A stretch of 37,782 bases of DNA from a virus: positions 1 to 37,782 of IMG/VR virus record IMGVR_UViG_3300033571_027679, one strand, 5' to 3'. Below, piece after piece: positions 6,253-24,206 of the stretch; within the stretch, counting starts at the first letter, position 1; the number at the start of each line of letters is the position of its first letter. The translations under genes and the position numbers were made by a program. A model generated the notes under the pieces. The model searched no databases. It was given only the letters and a program-made list of their open reading frames with translations, and was not told the origin of the DNA.

Positions 6253-8295
6253 ATGCGCAACCTCAAAATCAAGTATGCTGCTGCCCACAACTTCCTTCCC
6301 TTCGGCCCAGACGGAATACAGCTAACATTCAGTAACTACAAAAACGTAGTACTTGTCCGTGGCGAGAACCGTGATGCAAGGCAGGTTGACCCATCCCTGC
6401 CGAGCGACGAGCTGCGGGTTAGCAGCAACGGGACCGGCAAGAGCAGCATACAGGAGATCATCGTATACGCCCTGTTCGGCAAGACGGTGAAGAGGCCAGA
6501 GAAGCTTGGCGCAAACGACGTAGTCCACAACAAGGTCGGCAAGGACGCAAGGGTTGAGATTGTTTTCGATGAGTACCGTGTTCTGAGGACACGCAAGGAT
6601 GGCGGCAACGACAAGAAGAACAGCCTGAGGCTCTGGCACAGCCCAGAGGGCAGGTGGGAAAAGGACACAGAGATAACGCAGGGCACAATGGCCCTCACCC
6701 AGAAGAAGATCGAGGAGCTCATCGGGCTGAGCTATGACGCATTCGTCAACATATGCATATTCACGGACGACCAGCGGGCGTGCTTCCTCGAGTGCGAGAA
6801 CAAGCAAAAGAAGGAGATAGTGGAGAACATGCTGTCCCTCGGCATGTACAGGGAGTGGCACGACAACGCCCGTGCGATGCGCAAGGACCTTAAGTCCAAG
6901 ATCGACATCAAGACGAGAGAGTTCGAGATTCTCAAGGGCAACGAGGACGACGCCGTCCGGCGGCTCGCCCTCACCAAAGAAAAGGACGTGAAGTGGCGGA
7001 GCGACAAGAAAGACGAGATAGAGCAAATCAATAAAAAGATAGATCAGCTAGTAAAGCTGCTAGAGACGACAGACTCTGGCTTGGAGATAATCGCTTACAA
7101 CAAGGCGCAACAGACTATTCAGGACATCAACGAGAAGCTTCCTGAGCTCGAGAAGTTGAAATCTGGGCTTGAGCAAAAACTTCAAGTGGCCAAGGAGAAA
7201 GAGTCGCAAATTAAGGACGAGGCGTCCAAGATACAGGATTCATATAGAGAGATATCAGGGATAATTAACGATCTAGTGAGTCGCAGGAAGTCCAAGGACT
7301 CCGAACTGCAGAAGCTCAACGCAAATGTCCCTGGCGCCACATGCGACAAGTGCATGGGTGAGGTTCAGGAGGAGAACATCAAGCTTTACGCCGGCAGGAT
7401 CGGGTCTGACATAAGACTGCTGAACGCCGACATTGAGCGATTCATGGCCGAGGGCAAGAAGCTGGGCGAGCAGGCCAAGTCGCTCAAGGAAAAGCAGGAC
7501 AAGATAAAGACCTTAGTTGATCAGAAGGTTGCGGAAATTAGTGCCGTCGAATCTGACATGAGAAAGCTCAGGGATGACCTTGTCAAGGCAAGTCAGGTCC
7601 GTGAGCCCAAAGTCGATCAGCAGCAATCGCTTATCCAGCAGAAGATAGAGTCATTTAAGCAGCAGGCTTTAGACAAGCAGGCCGAGCTTCTGGCCAAGAG
7701 CCCATTCGCCGACATCATAGAGAATGACGAGATCGAGCTTAAGCGCTGCAAGAGCCTTGCTTCCGAGAAGGACCTCGAGGTTAAAGGACTCGAGTCGGAG
7801 CTGCCATACTTCGACTACTGGATCACCGGATTCGGCGACCACGGCATCAGGAAGTGGGTTGTCGACGGCATCATACCCGAGCTCAACAACCGAATTAACT
7901 ACTGGCTTCAGTTCCTGATCGACAACCGTATCACCTTGCGTTTCGACAACGAGCTGAACGAGACGATAGAAAGAAACCCGGCCGACGGCGACCCATACAT
8001 CTACCACGCCATGTCCACTGGCCAGAGAAGGAGGCTGAATCTGGCCGTCAGTCAATCCTTCGCCCACGTGATGTCCATGAGCTCGGGCTCGCTCCCATCC
8101 ATCGTCTTCCTTGACGAAGTTACAACAAACGTGGACCCGCTGGGCGTGCAAGGCATATACAACATGATCATGGAGCTTGCCGAGGATAAACAGGTCTTTG
8201 TCACGACCCACGATCACGACCTGATCAGGATGCTGGACGGCTGCGACAACATCCACATGGTGCTCGAAAACGGCTTTACTAGGCTCGCATCATAA
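6253..8295 (+). CDS. 46: gp46-like (SbcC/Rad50) recombination ATPase subunit
   Basis: SMC-like ATPase partner of gp47. The N-terminal half-site contains SSNGTGKSS (residues ~57-65, Walker A). A long coiled coil follows, with a zinc hook CDKC at residues 364-367. The C-terminal half carries the signature STGQRRRLNL (~586), Walker B IVFLDE (~616) and the H-loop TTHDHD. At 680 residues it is longer than T4 gp46 (560), mostly in the coiled coil. I start at ATG 6253 because MRNLKIK... aligns with the T4 N terminus; the same frame also extends to a TTG at 6163. Bases 6132-6252 otherwise hold no gene that I can support, only a weak TAAATACA-type AT-rich stretch. Confidence 0.92.
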   Translation: MRNLKIKYAAAHNFLPFGPDGIQLTFSNYKNVVLVRGENRDARQVDPSLPSDELRVSSNGTGKSSIQEIIVYALFGKTVKRPEKLGANDVVHNKVGKDARVEIVFDEYRVLRTRKDGGNDKKNSLRLWHSPEGRWEKDTEITQGTMALTQKKIEELIGLSYDAFVNICIFTDDQRACFLECENKQKKEIVENMLSLGMYREWHDNARAMRKDLKSKIDIKTREFEILKGNEDDAVRRLALTKEKDVKWRSDKKDEIEQINKKIDQLVKLLETTDSGLEIIAYNKAQQTIQDINEKLPELEKLKSGLEQKLQVAKEKESQIKDEASKIQDSYREISGIINDLVSRRKSKDSELQKLNANVPGATCDKCMGEVQEENIKLYAGRIGSDIRLLNADIERFMAEGKKLGEQAKSLKEKQDKIKTLVDQKVAEISAVESDMRKLRDDLVKASQVREPKVDQQQSLIQQKIESFKQQALDKQAELLAKSPFADIIENDEIELKRCKSLASEKDLEVKGLESELPYFDYWITGFGDHGIRKWVVDGIIPELNNRINYWLQFLIDNRITLRFDNELNETIERNPADGDPYIYHAMSTGQRRRLNLAVSQSFAHVMSMSSGSLPSIVFLDEVTTNVDPLGVQGIYNMIMELAEDKQVFVTTHDHDLIRMLDGCDNIHMVLENGFTRLAS

Positions 8296-15900: not shown

Positions 15901-17238
15901 TCACTCGAATTCGGCCAAGCTGTAAATGTTGCATCCAGGGTCTATGCAGCCCTTGCTGCCATCGGCCGTCAGGAACCAGTGCCACTTCTCGGGCTTGGAT
16001 GGTCGGATGTTGTCCCCATAGCCGTCCGTTATGACGAAAACCGCATCGGGGTGCTTGATTTTCTCCCTCTGCATCGTCTTGGAGACATGTTCCTCGATGA
16101 TCTTGAATGATGTGCCACCGCCGCCGTAAACCTTCTTGCTCTCCAGAGTCGTCTCCTGAACCATCGTGTCGAAGCAGAAGAGGCGCACTTGGAATCTATA
16201 CTCGGGCAGCGACTCGGCTGCCGTGAAGAACCTGTCTTTCAGATTCCAGCAAGATCCGCTGGTGTCCAAGAAGAACCACACCTTGATCTTGGTTGCCTCC
16301 CTGTCCTCAACCTCGACCTCTGCGTCCGTCGGCAGCATCATGTCCCTAGGGAGCATCGACATCCTGCGGTTGATCTTGATCCACTGCTCGACCTCCTTGT
16401 CGGTCGTCTTGAGATGCCGGATCGCCCACTTCTTGATGATGGTCTCCCATTTCTTCTTGCGCTTGCGTGGGCCCGTGGTGACAAAGCACCAACCGCCAGT
16501 GCCTGATCCGGCATGGGTTCCGCCGTCTTTCCCGTCCTTGGACTTATCGCCGTCTTTCTTGCGCTCCTCATCTTGGAAGTGCTTCTTAATCGTTGACTCG
16601 ATTGCCTTCTTCTCCTCCTCGGATAGGCTGCCGTTGAGCTCCTTGATCACCTTGCCCCAGTTTGAGTCTCCGTCGCCCAGGCCTTCGTGGCCATCGACGG
16701 TCTTGGGCATTCCCGGGCCTACAAGGTCGATGCTTATTGCGTCGAGCATGTTGAAGTAATGCTCGAAAGTCTCGTCTTCGCTTGGCTTCTGGGTGCGATC
16801 CTTGAAAACGGTGTCTATCCAGCAGTAGTTCTCGCTGTTGTCGATCTTGTCCCTCTCGAAGCCGAAGCTTCTTACGAGCGTGTGGTTGACGACAATGTCC
16901 ATGGCGACATTGGCTGCAGCGGAGTTTACCCCTGCGTCCCTTGACCTGGCGCCGTGGTTCAGAACGACGTGCATCGCCTCGTGGCATATCACGAAGAGCT
17001 TGTTGTACAGGTCTAGCGTTGACCAGAAGCCTGGGTTGAACCGGAACCAGATGAACTTGCCCTCGTTGTCGAACTGCACGCATGCGGTCGGTATGGAGTC
17101 GTCAAAGACCGGCTTGCCCATCTCCCACACCTTGTAGAAGACGGCATGGTGCGGCTCGAGGGCACGGCTGATCTCGAACCACTCCTCGTTCGTGATCCTA
17201 GCGTTGGTCTTGCTGCAGTACGCAACGTCTTCGCTCAT
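15901..17238 (-). CDS. DUF2201-type VWA/metallopeptidase-like protein, MoxR partner
   Basis: A 445-residue protein. The N-terminal part carries a zinc-peptidase-like site: HEAMH (H86, E87, H90), with NVAMDIVVNH (D114) as a possible third ligand. A Lys/Asp/Gly-rich linker spans residues ~235-265. The C-terminal VWA-like domain has the MIDAS motif DTSGS near residue 325 and GGGGTS and ITDGYGD downstream. This is the layout of the DUF2201 family, which in bacteria is paired with MoxR AAA+ ATPases and thought to help fold or activate other proteins with metal cofactors. Its ATG lies just after the ATPase stop, with GGGGGAG inside that gene's 3' end, so the two are co-translated. Confidence 0.85.
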   Translation of the reverse strand: MSEDVAYCSKTNARITNEEWFEISRALEPHHAVFYKVWEMGKPVFDDSIPTACVQFDNEGKFIWFRFNPGFWSTLDLYNKLFVICHEAMHVVLNHGARSRDAGVNSAAANVAMDIVVNHTLVRSFGFERDKIDNSENYCWIDTVFKDRTQKPSEDETFEHYFNMLDAISIDLVGPGMPKTVDGHEGLGDGDSNWGKVIKELNGSLSEEEKKAIESTIKKHFQDEERKKDGDKSKDGKDGGTHAGSGTGGWCFVTTGPRKRKKKWETIIKKWAIRHLKTTDKEVEQWIKINRRMSMLPRDMMLPTDAEVEVEDREATKIKVWFFLDTSGSCWNLKDRFFTAAESLPEYRFQVRLFCFDTMVQETTLESKKVYGGGGTSFKIIEEHVSKTMQREKIKHPDAVFVITDGYGDNIRPSKPEKWHWFLTADGSKGCIDPGCNIYSLAEFE

Positions 17239-17239
17239 G

Positions 17240-18871
17240 TCACTCCCCCTGCATCAGGCTACTGCTGAGACCACTGACCAGAATCTTCTCCAGAAGGCTC
17301 ATGAAGTGAGTCTGGGACTCGGAAAGGGCCTGCCTTGCGGAGATGCCCCTGCTGCGGGCTATGTTCATGATGCAGTTGTTGATGATGCCCATGAGGTTGC
17401 CGAAGGGCTTGTTGTTGACGATCGTGGAAAACTGCCACTTCTGCCTCTCGGACTCATCCTTGATGGACTCTATGTTGCTGAAGACGCAGTTCAGGGCTGC
17501 GAGGGTCTCCGTGGCCTGCCGCTCGTCCATTACCTCCGGCATGTGCTTGTCTATCTTCTCGTAGAGGGCTATCCTCTGGGGCACGGTGACGACCTGTGCC
17601 CTGTCGATCTTGCTGAGCTCCTTGGAATAGTCAGACCTAGACTTGGTGAAGTGGAGCGGCAGGGCCTGCTGTGTATCGATGTGGCCAGGCTTGCTCCTGT
17701 AGGCGGCCTGAAGCTCAGGGCTCTCCGTGAGTGCCCTGCGAATCTTCTTGCAGAGCTTGGCGTTCTGGTTCGCATCCATGATGTCGTGGCAAATGCCGTG
17801 GAACACCGGATGCTTGCCAAGGTTCGATATCACGTGGGAGCAGAACTTCTCGTCCGCTTCCATCTGGGACGATATCTTCTCCTTGGGCATGACCGGACCG
17901 AAGAAGCTCAGCAGCCTGTCGCTGGCGAAGATGTACTTCGATGCGCTGTTGTAGTTGTTCTCGTTCTCGAGGAACTTCTTGGCCTCTTCGATGTTCCGTG
18001 TGTTGAGCATCGTCTCTAGGCGCTCCGTCACGGGGCCGTTGTTCAGGGCCGAGGTGAGCTTGCTGACGTTCGACGAGACGGGCAGCACGTCTCGCATGTC
18101 GCCCTTGGCCTTGTAGACATCCAGGGCGTACTGGAGCCTCCTCGGGCTCACGTTGTCCTTCTCCTCCTCGCTGAGCTCCTCCCACCAGCCGATGGCGGAG
18201 TCCGCAAGACGGTTGCCGTATCGGCTGCGGAACCACTCGGCGTTTGGTGCGTAGGGTACGTGAATCTGGACATGGAACCTGTCCTGCTGCGCAGGGTCAA
18301 GCTTCTCAACGTCATAGTCGTTGACGTCGTCGTCGTCCGGGTTGATTGCCGCCCATACGAACCGGAGGTTCGGGAAGGACATCCCGTTGATGCTCTTAAA
18401 CTGGATCAGCTCGAGGACGGCGTTCCTGACCTTCTTGGGCGACCTGTTGAACTCGTCGAAGAAAAGGGCCTCGACTTCGCCCGTGGCGAACTGGTGCGGA
18501 CGAACGAGATCCAGATAGGTGATCCCCTCTTTGGCAGCCAGGGCGTGATCGACAATCTGAGTCGATGCGGCCTCATCGATCTTCCAGTTTGCCATCGCCC
18601 ACTTGACGGCCACGCACTTGCCGAGGCTGGCTATGCTGCGGAGCAGGAAGTATTCAGGGGGCATCTTGTTCTCGGTCCGCTCCCTCGGCACGCCGATGAA
18701 GTCGCACCACGGATCCATCGTGCTTGCTGAGAAGTATCGCCAGTTGAGCTTGTGGCGGTCGAAAACGTCCTTAACCATGGCGGTCTTGCCGACGCCATGC
18801 TTGCCCTTGAAAAGCACGTTGAGGTTGTTGTTGACCCAGAAGTCGAGCTTGGCGTTGATTGATGCGGACAT
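17240..18871 (-). CDS. MoxR-family AAA+ ATPase
   Basis: A 543-residue AAA+ protein. Walker A is GKHGVGKTA (residues ~23-31), Walker B is FFDEFNR (~136-142), sensor 1 is FVWAAINPD, and LDPAQQDRF carries the Arg finger. These are hallmarks of the MoxR group, whose members act as chaperone-like ATPases with a VWA-domain partner. The partner gene follows directly downstream. The C-terminal ~270 residues are helical and not recognised; they are longer than in typical bacterial MoxR (about 300-350 residues in total). A GGAGGTGCCGC ribosome binding site precedes the ATG. No equivalent is known in T4. Possible roles are virion assembly, control of host proteins, or defence against host systems. Confidence 0.85.
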   Translation of the reverse strand: MSASINAKLDFWVNNNLNVLFKGKHGVGKTAMVKDVFDRHKLNWRYFSASTMDPWCDFIGVPRERTENKMPPEYFLLRSIASLGKCVAVKWAMANWKIDEAASTQIVDHALAAKEGITYLDLVRPHQFATGEVEALFFDEFNRSPKKVRNAVLELIQFKSINGMSFPNLRFVWAAINPDDDDVNDYDVEKLDPAQQDRFHVQIHVPYAPNAEWFRSRYGNRLADSAIGWWEELSEEEKDNVSPRRLQYALDVYKAKGDMRDVLPVSSNVSKLTSALNNGPVTERLETMLNTRNIEEAKKFLENENNYNSASKYIFASDRLLSFFGPVMPKEKISSQMEADEKFCSHVISNLGKHPVFHGICHDIMDANQNAKLCKKIRRALTESPELQAAYRSKPGHIDTQQALPLHFTKSRSDYSKELSKIDRAQVVTVPQRIALYEKIDKHMPEVMDERQATETLAALNCVFSNIESIKDESERQKWQFSTIVNNKPFGNLMGIINNCIMNIARSRGISARQALSESQTHFMSLLEKILVSGLSSSLMQGE

Positions 18872-18973: not shown

Positions 18974-19714
18974 TCAGGAATATATCTGGAGGGCGTTCTT
19001 CTCGGAAACGTAGGTGCTGTCGCCCAGAACCGTCTCGAACCAGATGTTGTAGATGCCCTCCTCGAACTGATCAGTGTCGATGAAGTAGAACCCGTATCCT
19101 TGCTCACGGTAGTTCACCAACTGCCTGTCGACGACGAGGCGCAGGTCTTGCTCGGCCGGTACGCAGTCCCCGCAGGCCAGCTCGATGGAGACCCTTAGTT
19201 CGGAGTTCGTTGCGAGGTTCTCGTAATATGGCAGGATGTCAGCGCCCTTGGGGACGTTCGGGGTGACCTGTATCAGCAAATACCGCTTGGAACCCTTCCG
19301 AATCCGGTTCGGGCGGAAGTTGAAGTTGAAGTCGTAGACCGGCGGGGTCGGAGTCGTGAACCATAGCTGGGAGAACACCTTGAAAGTGTTCTCGATCTCG
19401 GCGCTGGCGCACTCGCCCGGCATGAAGGTGACCGACCATACATCTAGATACCTTCCAATGCTGTATGTCGATGGGTCAAGATATACGGTAATCGCATACT
19501 CGCCGGTGGTGAGCAACTGGATTTCGCTGCTCGGGACGGTCTGGACGAGCACCCTGCCGTCAGGGTTTGTAGTCGTGACGGCAGACGGGTCCATGAAGTA
19601 GATCTTCACGTCCTGTATGCTCTGGACGTTGCTCCGGTTGTTGCTGTTGAAGGTGAATAGGCGGAGCGTGAGCTCGTCGCCGCAGGCCGGATTCTGGAAT
19701 CGCTCTTTGCTCAT
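18974..19714 (-). CDS. Virion structural protein, beta-rich (246 aa)
   Basis: A 246-residue protein with no enzyme motifs. Its composition is rich in Thr, Val, Tyr and Asn and it runs as repeated beta strands (DVKIYFMDP, GEYAITVYLDP, DVWSVTFMPGE, RYLLIQVTPN, IYNIWFETVLGD). It looks like two or three immunoglobulin-like beta sandwiches, as in phage tail or capsid accessory proteins. It directly follows the gp26-like hub gene on the same strand, two bases after the end of the frameshift extension, so it is probably a late baseplate or tail component. The exact position in the virion cannot be told. Confidence 0.6.
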   Translation of the reverse strand: MSKERFQNPACGDELTLRLFTFNSNNRSNVQSIQDVKIYFMDPSAVTTTNPDGRVLVQTVPSSEIQLLTTGEYAITVYLDPSTYSIGRYLDVWSVTFMPGECASAEIENTFKVFSQLWFTTPTPPVYDFNFNFRPNRIRKGSKRYLLIQVTPNVPKGADILPYYENLATNSELRVSIELACGDCVPAEQDLRLVVDRQLVNYREQGYGFYFIDTDQFEEGIYNIWFETVLGDSTYVSEKNALQIYS

Positions 19715-19716
19715 GG

Positions 19717-19941
19717 TTATTTGGACCTACTTTTGGCTTTCCTGTTCTGAGCCTCGATGGCCTTGTTCTCGCCCTCTCTCTGCTCCACGAAGCGCTCGAT
19801 CATCCACCGCCGCAGGATTATTGGCATGCGCATGCACCTCTCCGGATCCATGTGCATGTGGTACTGGAAGAAGAAGATCTCCTCCGCCAGCGACTTCCAC
19901 AGCGCTATGCTTGGGTCTTCGTCTTTCTGCGGCGTGGGAAG
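19717..19941 (-). CDS. -1 frame extension of the gp26-like hub gene (74 aa after shift)
   Basis: This frame has no ATG, GTG or TTG in its first part yet reads as a genuine protein. It runs LPTPQKDEDPSIALWKS, then AEEIFFFQYHMHMDPERC, then MPIILRRWMIERFVEQ, with a Lys/Arg-rich end and stop at 19717-19719. It resembles small proteins I recall after gp26 in T4-like cyanophages (pattern MP-hydrophobic-x-R-R). It overlaps the 3' end of the gp26-like gene exactly in the -1 frame, and a slippery run sits at the join. Ribosomes that shift would make a ~445-residue fusion instead of 382 residues. Alternatives are initiation at an internal ATG (a ~46-50 residue product) or an assembly error in the T run. 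Confidence 0.6.
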   Translation of the reverse strand, partial: LPTPQKDEDPSIALWKSLAEEIFFFQYHMHMDPERCMRMPIILRRWMIERFVEQREGENKAIEAQNRKAKSRSK

Positions 19942-21053
19942 AAAAAATTTGCTTCAAGCGGCAGGTCGAGGGTGAACTCGGCGAGGCAGCTTGCGCACAC
20001 GATCTCGACGTTGGTGTCGACGCCGAACGACGGCTCGTTGATGCAGTTCCTGAGGTGGGACACGTCGCTGATTGGCAGGTTCTTCAGCAGGATCTGAAGC
20101 TCGTTCTTGTCGCTAATGCCGTCGATGTCGTTCAGGAGAAGCGCAGTCCGGTACAGCAGGGTGTCATCCGCACCGGAGTCGCCGAACGCCTTGATGCGTC
20201 GCTCCCGGTGCTCCGAAACCTCCTGCTCGTCACGGCCGCTGCTCAGCCTGTAGGAGAAGGGCAGCTTGCTGTTCGGCAGCACATCACGCAGCTCCGGCCC
20301 GTAATCGTCTGGGCAGTAGTCAACGTAAAGGTTGTTGAGGTCAATTGCGGTGTTGAACTTCGTGTCGCACTCGGGGCACTTGATCTCCACCTCGTAGCTG
20401 GGGGAGTAGCTGATGCCACGGAGGTAGATCAGGAGATATGTGCGATCGACCGTCAGCAGGTTCTCGGCACGGAACTGCTCCTTGATGCACTTCTGGAAGA
20501 TCATGTTGATTGCCTGGCCCTTCTTGACCAGACGTGGCGTGGCGAGGATTTGCTCCTCCTCGCCCGTCATTGGCCTAATCGAGACGATGCCGCTGGATGG
20601 GCCGTTCGTCCCGTCGTAGAAGCGACCCTTGGAGGGTAGCTGAATCTCCTCGTAGACGCCGGCGTTGTCCTTCAGGGAGGCCAACAGGTCCTTGAGGTGG
20701 CTCGATCCAGAAATCTGGCTCTGCTGCTGCTGCGGCCTTGCCACGGGGGCCTCGCCGCCTGCGCTCATCTGCCCGAATCCACGCTTGGGGTCGTTGCCGC
20801 TGAGCTGCTGCTCGACAGGGGTGTTCTGCTGGCGTGCTGCAGCCAATGCAGCCTGGAAGGCTGGCGGGACTGCGCCTGAAACCTGGAATGGGGCTGCGCC
20901 CTCGGAAGCCTTCGGGGCGGGGGCTGGGGAGTCGCCACGGACCTGACTCTGAAAATTCTGCACCTGATCGACTGGATTACCTTGGTCCTGACTCACGGCT
21001 TGCTCCTGATTGGGAATGGGTGACTTTCTCGGGCGAAAAACTTCATCGGTCAT
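19905..21053 (-). CDS. 26: gp26-like baseplate hub assembly protein
   Basis: A 382-residue protein. Residues ~1-150 are Gln/Pro/Ala-rich and poorly ordered. The C-terminal ~230 residues match the T4 base plate family (gp26/gp51 type). Key segments are VSIRPMTGEEEQIL, LVKKGQAINMIFQKCI, LLIYLRGISYSPSYEVE, a single Cys pair (CPEC), and FTLDLPLEANFFF near the end. Another Cys pair (CASC) precedes that. These proteins help build the central hub of the baseplate. The ATG at 21053 follows AAGGAGA, so an upstream in-frame start is not needed. The end carries the slippery site described separately. Confidence 0.75.
   Translation of the reverse strand: MTDEVFRPRKSPIPNQEQAVSQDQGNPVDQVQNFQSQVRGDSPAPAPKASEGAAPFQVSGAVPPAFQAALAAARQQNTPVEQQLSGNDPKRGFGQMSAGGEAPVARPQQQQSQISGSSHLKDLLASLKDNAGVYEEIQLPSKGRFYDGTNGPSSGIVSIRPMTGEEEQILATPRLVKKGQAINMIFQKCIKEQFRAENLLTVDRTYLLIYLRGISYSPSYEVEIKCPECDTKFNTAIDLNNLYVDYCPDDYGPELRDVLPNSKLPFSYRLSSGRDEQEVSEHRERRIKAFGDSGADDTLLYRTALLLNDIDGISDKNELQILLKNLPISDVSHLRNCINEPSFGVDTNVEIVCASCLAEFTLDLPLEANFFFPRRRKTKTQA
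19941..19950 (-). other. Slippery sequence for -1 frameshifting
   Basis: On the minus strand the hub gene reads GCA AAT TTT TTC TTC. This contains two overlapping X-XXY-YYZ heptamers in the correct frame: A AAT TTT (19950-19944) and T TTT TTC (19947-19941). A -1 slip here enters the downstream frame that lacks its own start. A CCAC/GTGG pairing downstream might form a stimulatory stem, but that is weak. An indel in the six-T run would give the same appearance. Confidence 0.6.
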
Positions 21054-21070
21054 TTTTTGTCTCCTTCCGC

Positions 21071-21128: not shown

Positions 21129-21488
21129 ATGGAAATAAATTTCAAAAACGTGGAGGAACTCATCTTCATGGACCGCACCGTGCAGGCCGTCCTGCCTTGG
21201 TTCAAACACCTTTTTGACCAGTACAACCTGTCCTTCATAGTTCCCGGGATGAAAAGCCTAGCCAAGCGCAGCGTTTTCGAGCTTCTCAACTCACTTGATG
21301 CTAGAAGCGTCGAGGCGCTTATGGCCCACTTTGGCGACACCGTCGTCGTCAGCAAGCTCAGCGACAAGGTCGCCGACAGCTACCAGTTCGAGGCCGAGAA
21401 CGCCGGCAGTATATGCGAGTACAGCGGATACAAGGACTTCTGCATCACTAGGACAGGGGATTTGATAAAGGCATCTTTCTGGAGATAG
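21129..21488 (+). CDS. Hypothetical protein (119 aa)
   Basis: Unrecognised. The first ~85 residues are predicted helical (VEELIFMDRTVQAVLPWFKHLF, then SLAKRSVFELLNSLD). The last ~35 look like a small beta unit with two Cys (GSICEYSGYKDFCITRTGD). No membrane segment or enzyme motif is visible. GAGAGTGAC lies before the ATG. It heads a plus-strand run of four small genes, with one base between its stop and the next start. Confidence 0.6.
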   Translation: MEINFKNVEELIFMDRTVQAVLPWFKHLFDQYNLSFIVPGMKSLAKRSVFELLNSLDARSVEALMAHFGDTVVVSKLSDKVADSYQFEAENAGSICEYSGYKDFCITRTGDLIKASFWR

Positions 21489-21490
21489 TC

Positions 21491-21877
21491 ATGAGCGCAT
21501 GGAATATGTTTATGTATTGCCTGAGCACGATTGGGATGTGCCACATAATTGTTGACGGCAGCATCCTCCAGTGGTTCAGGGACCTGGTCAAGTCAATTAG
21601 CGAAAAGCTGCGGATTCCCCACTTGGGCAACGTCGTCGACTGCTACCTGTGCTGCGGCACGTGGTGCGGCTTCCTGATGGGCTGGGTGTGGCTGGTGTCG
21701 GCCGGAGACTGCAGCACCATAATCTCGTGGCTCAAGATCTTCGGATGCGGCTGCGCCGGTGGGTTCCTGTCGAACTCCGCTGCCGTCTGGCTCAACTACC
21801 TAGAGGCGAACACCATAGTGAGCATGCCCGGAGAGCCGACATTCATCGATACACAGAACACTCAAGATGACAAATGA
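21491..21877 (+). CDS. Inner-membrane protein with Cys cluster (128 aa)
   Basis: A small membrane protein. It has hydrophobic helices at residues ~3-22 (WNMFMYCLSTIGMCHIIV), ~57-75 (CGFLMGWVWLVSAG) and ~78-105 (IISWLKIFGCGCAGGFL). A cysteine cluster DCYLCCGTWCG sits at the mouth of the second helix. The layout resembles DUF1360-like membrane proteins that recur in T4-type phages, whose role is unknown. Its last 11 bases overlap the start of the following zinc-ribbon gene. Confidence 0.65.
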   Translation: MSAWNMFMYCLSTIGMCHIIVDGSILQWFRDLVKSISEKLRIPHLGNVVDCYLCCGTWCGFLMGWVWLVSAGDCSTIISWLKIFGCGCAGGFLSNSAAVWLNYLEANTIVSMPGEPTFIDTQNTQDDK

Positions 21878-22184
21878 GTTTAAGTACTATCTTCATTGCA
21901 GCAACTGCAACCTGAAGAAATACACAAACGGCATGGACCTCGACGACCTCATCGAGATCAAGAGGACTCAGCCGATGCGCTTGGTCCCCAAGGTTGACAA
22001 GTATTCGGGAAAGCTTGTCGTGCCGCCCGACGTAAAGAGGCCCAAGATGTACAGGTGCCCGAGGTGCGGCTTCACTTTGCGTGGGCACACAATTCCGGCA
22101 GTACCAAACCTAGAGGGAAAGAATGAGCAGACCAATAACCCTTCTGGACGTGAAGCAGGCCCTGAGGGACTCCCGCTTCCGTAA
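21867..22184 (+). CDS. Zinc-ribbon protein (105 aa)
   Basis: Two Cys pairs form a likely zinc site: CSNC (residues ~11-14) and CPRC (~64-67), about 50 residues apart with an acidic helix between them. The C-terminal ~25 residues are polar and likely unfolded; they are encoded within a 62-base overlap with the next gene in another frame. Function is unknown; such ribbons bind nucleic acid or protein partners. It follows the membrane-protein gene by an 11-base overlap. Confidence 0.6.
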   Translation: MTNEFKYYLHCSNCNLKKYTNGMDLDDLIEIKRTQPMRLVPKVDKYSGKLVVPPDVKRPKMYRCPRCGFTLRGHTIPAVPNLEGKNEQTNNPSGREAGPEGLPLP

Positions 22185-22503
22185 CAGTCTCCCAGAGTCA
22201 CTGAAGCCGGAGCTTCAGAAGTTCCTGAGCAACCCAGGCTGCGCCTGCAACGTCCCGATCTACCAGAAGGTCCTCAAGGAGGCGAGAAGCCAGCTCTCGG
22301 CTTATTTCCCCAACAGGCCAATAAGCAACGTCGAGGAAGAGGTGAAGAAGCTTGCGGAAAACCACTGGAAGGTAATCAACTGCAGCGCAGGCGAGCTCGA
22401 GTCCGAGCTCAAGAAGCTTCCGCCAGGCAGGAAGCAGATCGCCGTGGCGAGGTTCGAGGACAAGGTGACAGTCGTGGTCAACGAGATAGAGTTGGTCTAC
22501 TAG
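22123..22503 (+). CDS. Conserved phage hypothetical protein (126 aa)
   Basis: A 126-residue protein with the pattern LLDVKQALRDSRFRNSLP, then FLSNPGCACNVPIY and LPPGRKQIAVARFEDKV. I recall this pattern from hypothetical proteins of T4-like phages of aquatic bacteria, with no assigned function. The CAC motif could bind metal. GAGGGAAAGA precedes the ATG, which lies inside the zinc-ribbon gene. The stop shares a CTAG palindrome with the convergent glycosyltransferase gene. Confidence 0.65.
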   Translation: MSRPITLLDVKQALRDSRFRNSLPESLKPELQKFLSNPGCACNVPIYQKVLKEARSQLSAYFPNRPISNVEEEVKKLAENHWKVINCSAGELESELKKLPPGRKQIAVARFEDKVTVVVNEIELVY

Positions 22504-23465
22504 GCCCTGCCAACGTAAACCTTTGATACGCCGGCAAGCGTCTTGCAGGATTCGATCATAGTTTTGGGGTAGTCCCCGTACTTTGACACCTCCATCGGCC
22601 AACAGGAGTCGCTTCGCCTCCTCTCGCCGACGACAAGTGCGTTTGTGTACATTGAAATTGCCCTTGAGTAGTCGCCTGCGTTGTAGAAGACGTCTCCGGC
22701 GACGCACCAGAACTCCGCCATCGCAGGGCACTTGGCCAAGCACGGGATTATATTCTCGAGCGCACGCCTGTAGTCTTTCTTGTGGTAGCACAAAACCATG
22801 CATATGTAGTACTTGATCATGAAGTATGACATCTGCTGCTTCTTTTCGGCGTGCAGGTATGACTCTGCGTAGTTCAGGAAGTTTTCGGCGCTGCCCCGCT
22901 GCAGGTGAGCGCACGCCAGGTAGTAGAGCGGCTCGGCCGACAGGGGCATCGAGGCGTGCCACCTAGTGCATATTTCCACTATGTCTAGGGCTTGGCGTGT
23001 CCCGCTTGAAACGAGAAAGGAGTCTATGTCAGTTGCGACGCAGTCGAGGGTTTCAAAGGCGTGGTTCTTGAACTTGGCGCAGGTATCGTGATGCCAAATT
23101 CTTGCGGGCTTGGTGACGATGTCACCCTGCATCAGGTGTATGTTGAAGGCCTTGTCTTCTCCTGACGCCATGGCTTCCATGATTGCTTCGTGCCCGCTGA
23201 TTATGATCTCCTCCGGCCTGATCCACATATTCCAAGGTGTCTCGGAATGAGAGGCCAACTCGTTCCTGGCTCTGGCTAGGCTATCGTTCAGCGAGATGCG
23301 GTATATCTTGGCGTCAAAAAGCCTGCACTTCTCCCTCGTCGAGTCCTTGCTGCCAAGGTCGCCAACTATGATTTCGCAAGGCAAGGATCGGACGCTCTCA
23401 AGGCATGAGCATATGTCGGACTCGTTGTCCTTAGTCAGTATGTGGACCGTCAGTGGGTTCTTCAT
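22500..23465 (-). CDS. Family 2 glycosyltransferase with C-terminal TPR-like repeats
   Basis: Residues ~1-110 form a GT2-type nucleotide-sugar domain: LTVHILTKDNESDICSCLES, then the GDLGSKDSTRE acidic loop. The usual DxD position reads WIRPEEI, so the catalytic motif is unusual and activity is uncertain. Residues ~165-290 have helical repeats of TPR type (AEPLYYLACAHLQRGSAENF and EFWCVAGDVFYNAGDYSRAI). Similar GT2-TPR fusions occur in bacteria and large phages and are linked to surface glycan or protein glycosylation. The gene has 321 residues and overlaps the upstream small gene by 35 bases. Confidence 0.75.
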   Translation of the reverse strand: MKNPLTVHILTKDNESDICSCLESVRSLPCEIIVGDLGSKDSTREKCRLFDAKIYRISLNDSLARARNELASHSETPWNMWIRPEEIIISGHEAIMEAMASGEDKAFNIHLMQGDIVTKPARIWHHDTCAKFKNHAFETLDCVATDIDSFLVSSGTRQALDIVEICTRWHASMPLSAEPLYYLACAHLQRGSAENFLNYAESYLHAEKKQQMSYFMIKYYICMVLCYHKKDYRRALENIIPCLAKCPAMAEFWCVAGDVFYNAGDYSRAISMYTNALVVGERRRSDSCWPMEVSKYGDYPKTMIESCKTLAGVSKVYVGRA

Positions 23466-23616
23466 TTTCTTTGAATCTACGCTCTAGTAGGTGAGCCACG
23501 GCATCGGCTTCGTCCTGCAGCTTGGCGCTCAGGTAGTAAAGTCTCAGGTCACGATAGTTTTTTGGTACATCAGGATTTTTGATGATATCTAAAAAAATAT
23601 CTTGCAATCTTTTCAT
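23431..23616 (-). CDS. Small helical protein (61 aa)
   Basis: Unrecognised 61-residue protein, MKRLQDIFLDIIKN at the start and charged toward the end (LLERRFKENEEP). The frame extends upstream to an ATG at 23667, but that would overlap the start of the divergent sigma-factor gene. The ATG at 23616 has no Shine-Dalgarno sequence. The 3' end overlaps the glycosyltransferase gene by 35 bases. The position in an operon-like pair supports it; confidence is moderate. Confidence 0.5.
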   Translation of the reverse strand: MKRLQDIFLDIIKNPDVPKNYRDLRLYYLSAKLQDEADAVAHLLERRFKENEEPTDGPHTD

Positions 23617-23629
23617 ATTGTGGTATAGT
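23602..23629 (+). promoter_or_regulatory. Sigma70-type promoter upstream of the gp55-like gene
   Basis: TTGCAA (23602-23607) and TATAGT (23624-23629) are separated by 16 bases, a good match to host vegetative promoters. It lies about 30 bases before the ATG of the late sigma factor, with AAGGAG in between. Early or middle expression of a late sigma factor by host polymerase is the expected arrangement. Confidence 0.6.
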
Positions 23630-23660
23630 TTACCTTGTATGGGTTTGTCCAAGGAGACTG

Positions 23661-24206
23661 ATGGCAACTGAGTATCTGAACAACAAGACTTTCGAGGCTT
23701 TGATCGTTCGCTTCCAGAAAGCCAAGAGGGAGAGGATCAAGTACCAGCTCTTCATGGATGACATCATCGCCACGCAACAGCGGACGATGCGCAGGGGACG
23801 CTTCAAGAAGCCGGCCCTGTGGTGCGAGGTGGAGGAGCTTTTCAAGCAGCTCGCTTTCGACTACGAGAACGCACAGGACGACTTGGCAATTGCCTTCTAC
23901 ACTTTGTCCGAGAACATAGTCCGCTACGCAAAATTTAACCTGATAGATCAGGACGACGCCATTCAGGAGGGCGTCATGATCTGCTTCGAGAAGATTGACA
24001 GGTTTGACCCCAAGAAGGGCAAGGCCTTCAATTACATGACGACATGCATCCTGAACCATTTCAGGCAGCTATACCGCACGGCTAGGAACTACAACGAGCT
24101 TAAAAGAAAGTACCTTGACTTCGTGCAGATACAAATGGATTGCAAGATACCTACCAGCAAGACAAAAAGTCTTTACAAGAGACACAACATCGTAAGCGAC
24201 GCTTGA
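23661..24206 (+). CDS. 55: gp55-like late sigma factor
   Basis: RNA polymerase sigma factor for late phage genes. A sigma region-2 pattern is clear in the C-terminal half: LIDQDDAIQEGVMICFEKID, then FDPKKGKAFNYMTTCIL, then NHFRQLYRTARNY, as in T4 gp55. At 181 residues it matches T4 gp55 (185) and lacks regions 3 and 4, as expected. In T4 it recognises TATAAATA with the help of gp33 and the gp45 clamp. Its presence supports reading the NATAWATA motifs in this window as late promoters. AAGGAG precedes the ATG. Confidence 0.88.
   Translation: MATEYLNNKTFEALIVRFQKAKRERIKYQLFMDDIIATQQRTMRRGRFKKPALWCEVEELFKQLAFDYENAQDDLAIAFYTLSENIVRYAKFNLIDQDDAIQEGVMICFEKIDRFDPKKGKAFNYMTTCILNHFRQLYRTARNYNELKRKYLDFVQIQMDCKIPTSKTKSLYKRHNIVSDA

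Follow-up and report, generated by a model that had tools for sequence, protein, structure and literature searches.

A conserved, very probable -1 frameshift site in a gp26-like phage gene points to a tail-assembly chaperone made in two forms

Comparison with related loci suggests that a gp26-like gene of a contractile-tailed phage encodes a tail-assembly chaperone (TAC), and that a minority of the ribosomes translating it slip by -1 at U_UUU_UUC to produce a longer protein, TAC-NC. We put the probability of this reading at about 0.88. In the sequences compared, the two frames each encode protein, and constraint is seen on the slip site. A programmed -1 frameshift had been proposed in an earlier note on this DNA, which was made from the sequence alone, and the comparison lends it strong support through the conservation of the heptamer (60 of 62 distinct contexts), the frozen codons of the slip site and the selection acting on the extension. 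The device is very probably a slip back of the ribosome, which would make the locus a further clear case of an already known form of gene control and not a new mechanism. Frameshifting would also account for the extension, a coding stretch likely to be overlooked by annotation pipelines.

Layout of the gene, the slip site and the extension

The window, by which we mean the whole 37,782-base virus record that was analysed, carries a T4-type contractile tail set composed of the sheath, two tube proteins, a sheath stabiliser and a connector protein. The protein encoded by the 0-frame gene (Table 1) is variable and of low complexity over residues 1 to about 130, and its conserved domain comprises residues 136-377. 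In profile searches, this protein matched PF12322, T4_baseplate (gp26), with an E-value of 1.5e-16 and 61.2 bits, above the curated cut-off of 24.5, as well as phrog_150, baseplate hub (E 2.7e-21).

The 3' end of the gene reads CTT GAA GCA AAT TTT TTC TTC CCA CGC CGC AGA AAG ACG AAG ACC CAA GCA TAG. The stretch AAATTTTTTC, located at 19950-19941 on the minus strand, occurs only once in the window when both strands are counted. The layout described in the earlier note was reproduced in full: the gene continues for 11 codons after the TTC of GCA AAT TTT TTC and then stops at TAG, the -1 frame is open for 74 codons (LPTPQKDEDPSIALWKSLAEEIFFFQYH...KSRSK), and its stop lies two bases ahead of the next ATG, at 19714. 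The extension was also said to lack a normal start at its beginning; indeed, a stop closes the -1 frame four codons ahead of the extension, and this frame offers its first ATG, GTG or TTG only 28 codons inside the extension, past the conserved core. An in-frame heptamer of the X_XXY_YYZ type followed by a -1 frame that remains coding past the 0-frame stop is the arrangement of a canonical -1 site.

Table 1. Features of the gp26-like locus and its surroundings in the window
Feature	Position	Strand	Basis or remark
0-frame gene, gp26-like / TAC-N, 382 aa plus stop	19905..21053	minus	ATG at 21053; PF12322 and phrog_150 profile matches
AAGGAG ribosome-binding site 5' of the ATG at 21053	21061..21066	minus	motif picked by eye
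Slippery heptamer T_TTT_TTC, near-universal site	19941..19947	minus	sequence and relatives
Overlapping heptamer A_AAT_TTT, 48/62 distinct contexts	19944..19950	minus	sequence and relatives
-1 frame extension, 74 codons, TAC-C-like, mostly helical domain	19720..19941	minus	frame, selection, predicted fold
TAA stop of the -1 extension	19717..19719	minus	
Next gene, 246 aa, family unknown, conserved neighbour in the clade	18974..19714	minus	

From this layout and the comparisons below, we infer the following course of translation. Most ribosomes would terminate at the 0-frame stop and release the short gp26-like form, TAC-N, of 382 aa. In a minority of cases, the tRNA-Phe molecules on UUU and UUC would slip back by one base and both re-pair with UUU, and the slipped ribosomes would go on to synthesize the long form, TAC-NC (...EANFF-LPTPQK...RSK), of 445 residues. 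In phage lambda, which has the gpG and gpGT proteins, the short form coats the tape measure and the C-terminal part recruits the tube protein. By analogy with lambda G/GT, coating of the tape measure would fall to TAC-N and recruitment of the tube protein to the helical C-terminal domain of TAC-NC.

Conservation of the slip site and the overlap

A search with the hub protein retrieved 47 viral contigs. The slip site and the -1 extension are spanned by 47 sequences, including the window and a 595 kb phage record (L001); one contig (L011) stops short of the site, and another (L053) belongs to the other type considered below. The 595 kb record carries the -1 arrangement at the site GCG GGT TTT TTC, and the row GAG CAG TTT TTC in the list of distinct contexts is a mis-hit within the same record, not its real site. 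The second search was conducted with the extension alone, using peptide patterns that exclude the slip site, and 80 of 122 confirmed loci were kept. Of the 133 loci of the profile search described below, 79 (L056-L134) were retrieved via the extension alone and independently of the slip site.

A profile search detected the extension in 130 of 134 sequences (the 133 loci and the window), and in 126 of them it occupies the -1 frame. An in-frame T_TTT_TTC is found no more than 90 bases from the end of the hub gene in 124 of these 126 loci. This count is free of any requirement for the site, whereas the 58/60 obtained in a separate site search is conditional, since that search required TTT TTC. 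Many loci represent the same contig retrieved twice; after the removal of repeats, 62 distinct contexts are left, 60 of which contain T_TTT_TTC. The remaining two (L112 and L113) are near-identical to each other and read C_TTT_TTC, a less favourable slip site with five T.

The earlier note had proposed aligning relatives as a check, and both the overlap and T_TTT_TTC proved to be conserved at these frequencies. It had also pointed to two overlapping heptamers, both of which exist in the window, but near-universality is limited to T_TTT_TTC. Conservation thus marks T_TTT_TTC as the functional slip site, because A_AAT_TTT is less conserved (48/62). The same note took as evidence against a frameshift any relatives in which the two parts are separate genes lacking the heptamer. 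Such cases are seen only outside the clade, namely in T4 and in the wider family, where the extension lies in another frame. Judged by these sequence comparisons, the arrangement is neither a chance occurrence nor a sequencing slip.

Codon-level constraint at the slip site

Multiple alignment of 34 distinct hub ends contains 78 invariant residues, 76 of which could be encoded by more than one codon. Just two of these 76 columns use a single codon, and they are the TTT and the TTC of the slip site. At the remaining invariant phenylalanine positions, TTT and TTC both occur (for example, in 13 and 21 hub ends), with the exception of the phenylalanine directly 3' of the site, which falls inside the overlap and is encoded by TTC in 33 of 34. 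The base preceding the slip site is T in 34/34 hub ends, although the residue concerned is N, S or G. The odds of two frozen columns hitting the slip pair by random placement are 1 in 2,850, which is a rough value given that the sequences are related. Since the C of TTC doubles as the first base of the Leu codon in the -1 frame, some of the constraint on this C may arise there; the constraint on the T of TTT and on the T preceding it is left unexplained by this Leu codon. This pattern of codon use indicates that selection constrains the slip site at the level of its nucleotides.

With respect to possible stimulators of frameshifting, no consensus RNA structure near the slip site was found by RNAalifold in 32 distinct contexts. 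A 6-bp stem predicted by the same program about 75 nt downstream (total -4 kcal/mol) is positioned over the conserved EEIFFF codons and was rejected as a stimulator. The 60-nt region downstream of the site demonstrates only a slight gain in folding (median z -0.84 vs -0.28 for the control, mononucleotide shuffles). Anti-Shine-Dalgarno matches near the site are no higher than background, and thus no internal Shine-Dalgarno signal was identified there. A stimulator, if present, may be weak or host-specific.

Evolution of the extension as a protein

The description of the extension as protein-like in the earlier note is in agreement with its substitution pattern. The median pN/pS is 0.29 (463 pairs among 31 distinct sequences past the hub stop, with L001 excluded) and 0.24 for the 30 pairs involving the window, both values being rough because synonymous changes are near saturation. 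Differences at codon positions 1, 2 and 3 of the -1 frame number 9,400, 5,704 and 15,748, respectively, and thus affect mainly third positions. The other two frames of the extension contain on average 3.6 and 3.1 stops per sequence. The predicted structure consists of helices at residues 10-29, 33-38 and 41-73, with a mean pLDDT of 87.7. Taken at the level of sequence, these features indicate that the extension evolves as a protein in the -1 frame.

Foldseek returned no significant match for the extension in the PDB, and a scan of genome contigs with the extension gave 349 pattern matches, 0 of which were confirmed. The Pfam family DUF6760 is weakly matched by 19 of the 46 members of alignment A5 (46 extension sequences; best E 3.7e-4). 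DUF6760 may be a stand-alone form of this C-terminal domain.

Alternative explanations

Two separate overlapping genes would be an alternative to the frameshift, with the 74-codon frame translated alone from an internal start through re-initiation or leaky coupling. In the stretch from the last -1 stop to the conserved core, an ATG is available in 20 of 61 distinct contexts and only a GTG or TTG in 15 more, and Mel-JY01, which does not belong to the clade, has an annotated second gene that overlaps the end of the hub gene. However, 26 of the 61 contexts have none of these start codons (one locus, L023, was left out of the count because its core differs by one residue), and the first one in the window comes only after the conserved helix. 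These two observations make a separate start for the extension unlikely, and the freezing of TTT TTC in the upstream frame would then be needless; overall, we regard independent translation as very improbable. The same low probability is assigned to transcriptional slippage, in which RNA polymerase would add a U on the six-T run so that some messages encode the fusion in one frame. The T run is present and the resulting proteins would be the same, but the codon phase is fixed as T_TTT_TTC, which is needed for slippage of the ribosome and not of the transcript. Moreover, the run is reduced to five T in the two exceptional loci, and even six T is short for transcriptional slippage.

A sequencing error or a decayed gene, i.e., a one-base error in the T run that splits an ordinary gene, deserves attention since homopolymer runs are error-prone and one base more or less changes the frame. 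Against it, dozens of contigs assembled separately, as well as a deposited genome record, show the same run length and the same overlap, which brings the probability of such an error close to nil. Slippage of the ribosome at T_TTT_TTC is the explanation that we retain.

Proposed assignment to tail-assembly chaperones

The designation of the gene as a hub gene in the earlier note holds as far as membership in the gp26-like family (PF12322) is concerned, but probably not for its role. 'Hub' is an annotation label, and the predicted fold, the probable frameshift and the gene position in relatives point to tail-assembly chaperone (TAC-N / TAC-NC) as the better name. The predicted hub domain has a mean pLDDT of 90.7, and a Foldseek search of the PDB gave no significant match for it. 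Realignment of 652 Foldseek candidate chains placed B. subtilis YqbN (3klu; Z 6.9, 79 residues, rmsd 2.9), which we take to be a member of a TAC family, at rank 1, followed by the HK97 tail assembly chaperone (2ob9; Z 5.9, 100 residues, rmsd 6.2) and a PICI protein (5ir0; Z 5.4, 85 residues, rmsd 5.7), with unrelated chains at Z 4.6 and below; these top ranks are supportive of a TAC-N fold, but all of the scores are lower than 8, a range in which Z can reflect a common arrangement. The best viral predicted-structure match to the hub domain is the 'baseplate hub subunit' of SP-15 (E 7.7e-20). Sequence searches of the PDB with two profiles brought up zinc-finger proteins, designed proteins and further hits, all of them apparently due to chance.

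Similar to TACs, the locus has the architecture for a short and a long form that share the N-terminal part and would differ by a frameshift at the 3' end, and this architecture is conserved. A further attribute of TAC genes, common although not invariable, is an order in which the tube gene, the TAC gene and the tape measure gene are directly next to each other. This order was found in SP-15 and LIS04, where the gene lies between the tail tube gene and the annotated tape measure; a location after the tube gene and ahead of the tape measure is presumably that of lambda G/T. The window and its clade do not have this order. In the window, the gp26-like gene has no tape measure gene beside it and is separated from the tube gene by a block with plus-strand genes. 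This block (21129-24206) includes a sigma-factor-like gene (23661-24206), and its order is conserved across much of the clade.

On the other side, the 246-aa gene is next in every neighbourhood pattern listed for the clade, often followed by ATPase and VWA-like genes. In the window, the ATPase gene (phrog_1297) adjoins the VWA-like gene (phrog_1314, labelled HNH endonuclease; 'VWA-like' is our own label) at 15901-18871 on the minus strand. In many relatives, this pair follows the cassette in the place of the tape measure. The proposed renaming would correct 'baseplate hub' to 'tail-assembly chaperone' across a widespread family.

The other frame at the same codon pair in the wider gp26 family

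The wider set was composed of 87 loci, i.e., 80 viral relatives of greater distance (the best 80 of 454) together with SP-15, LIS04, GXN1, LR756508, Mel-JY01, L053 and L001. Seven loci were dropped, including L001, which is of the -1 type, and six with a short or cut +1 frame (L207, L157, L211, L181, L166 and L200). In the remaining 80 loci (78 distinct; from the best 80 of 454), the +1 (= -2) frame continues without a stop for 130 bases or more beyond the end of the hub gene. Among these 78 contexts, 77 match the extension profile A5 with E 1e-3 or better, a count in which the 29 such +1-frame sequences used to build the profile (L053 included) match by construction. Members of the wider family, such as SP-15, LIS04, GXN1 and Mel-JY01, thus resemble the clade of the window in having a homologous hub domain and extension with the same Phe-Phe join, but their extension is in the +1 (= -2) frame and the join is mostly TTT TTT TGG.

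The sequence TTT TTT TGG forms the join in 62 of the 78 distinct contexts (from the best 80 of 454). Its variants in this set are TTT TTT TAC (3 contexts), TTC TTT TGG, TTT CTT TGG and TTC TTT CGT (2 each), TTC CTT TGG and, in L004, TTT CTA TTC (1 each), and TTT TTT followed by CAC, AGT, CGC, CCC or CGG (1 each). Most variants fit a P-site YUU slipping onto the following U/C better than a -2 slip; LIS04 (AGT) does not. A -2 slip is probably the less likely of the two, because re-pairing in the variants TTC TTT TGG and CTT TGG is better after a +1 slip. Such a +1 slip of a P-site YUU can be likened to the CUU U of prfB. Ahead of the core, the same 78 contexts (from the best 80 of 454) contain an ATG in 28 cases, only GTG or TTG in 21 and no start codon in 18, with 11 being unscorable. 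The +1 shift in the wider family is put forward as a proposal since the start-codon evidence is weaker there.

We slightly favour an evolutionary scenario in which the direction of frameshifting has switched within the gp26/TAC family, with -1 at U_UUU_UUC in the clade containing the huge phage and +1 in most other relatives. Both directions would appear to use the same Phe-Phe codon pair and to join the same two protein domains, so that nature provides homologous codons at which -1 recoding can be compared with probable +1 recoding. Among the literature titles and abstracts listed, none described a +1 shift for the gp26/TAC genes of such phages related to T4, which is not a proof of absence. 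The switch in direction is possibly the new part of this work, as far as the overlap with the literature can be gauged from the title of Vladimirov et al. (2022) and the papers citing it.

Relation to known systems

The origin of a long TAC form by frameshifting is textbook knowledge. In lambda G/GT and P2 E/E', a -1 shift near the 3' end of the TAC-N gene reportedly adds a C-terminal part, similar to the arrangement in the window. In these phages the tape measure gene is said to adjoin the TAC gene, whereas in the window it does not.

The TAC genes of T4-like phages were identified by Vladimirov, Gautam and Davidson (2022; Virology 566:9-15), a study known here by its title and citing papers, and they are alike in combining a gp26-type TAC-N with TAC-C; the remark in the earlier note that such a device was not known for the T4 gp26 family is thereby superseded. 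Genes 26 and 51 of T4 itself are divergent, unlike the single, probably frameshifted locus of the window. The 2022 study reportedly describes frameshifting as conserved in several T4-like groups, with T4 using genes 26 and 51 separately.

A paper citing the 2022 study describes polyT frameshift signals in T4-like TAC-N genes, the -1 device in other myovirus TACs (section 3.8.3) and a conserved -1 shift at the polyT motif GTTTTT, with an extension of more than 200 bp, in the TAC locus of Adele, Vandenendeviridae / Andersonviridae (PMC12846349). By description, the Adele locus resembles that of the window in belonging to contractile phages and in having a -1 shift at polyT. In PMC10885494, some T4-like phages are reported to possess a short gene and a separate longer fusion gene, and PMC3004832 lists T4 gp26 and gp51 among the hub assembly chaperones.

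Using hhalign, T4 gp26 was matched by alignment A3 with E 3.2e-6 and a probability of 88 percent, and by the wider alignment A4 with E 4.8e-5 and 68 percent. The hhalign comparison with T4 gp51 gave no significant match, the extension being aligned to gp51 residues 222-245 at a probability of 0.3 percent. The gp51 test with phrog_634 resulted in weak matches for five of 46 TAC-C members (best E 0.0064) and no match for the window's own extension. By eye, the end of T4 gp51, DEIFTFYQINH...MIPAERGFVLKLIEKDKQ, is extension-like, although its profile comparison with the extension is not significant. T4 gp26 ends with ...KEFFELL, just beyond the Phe pair. Both T4 genes lie in the T4 locus L055, at 7480-8229 and 6803-7429.
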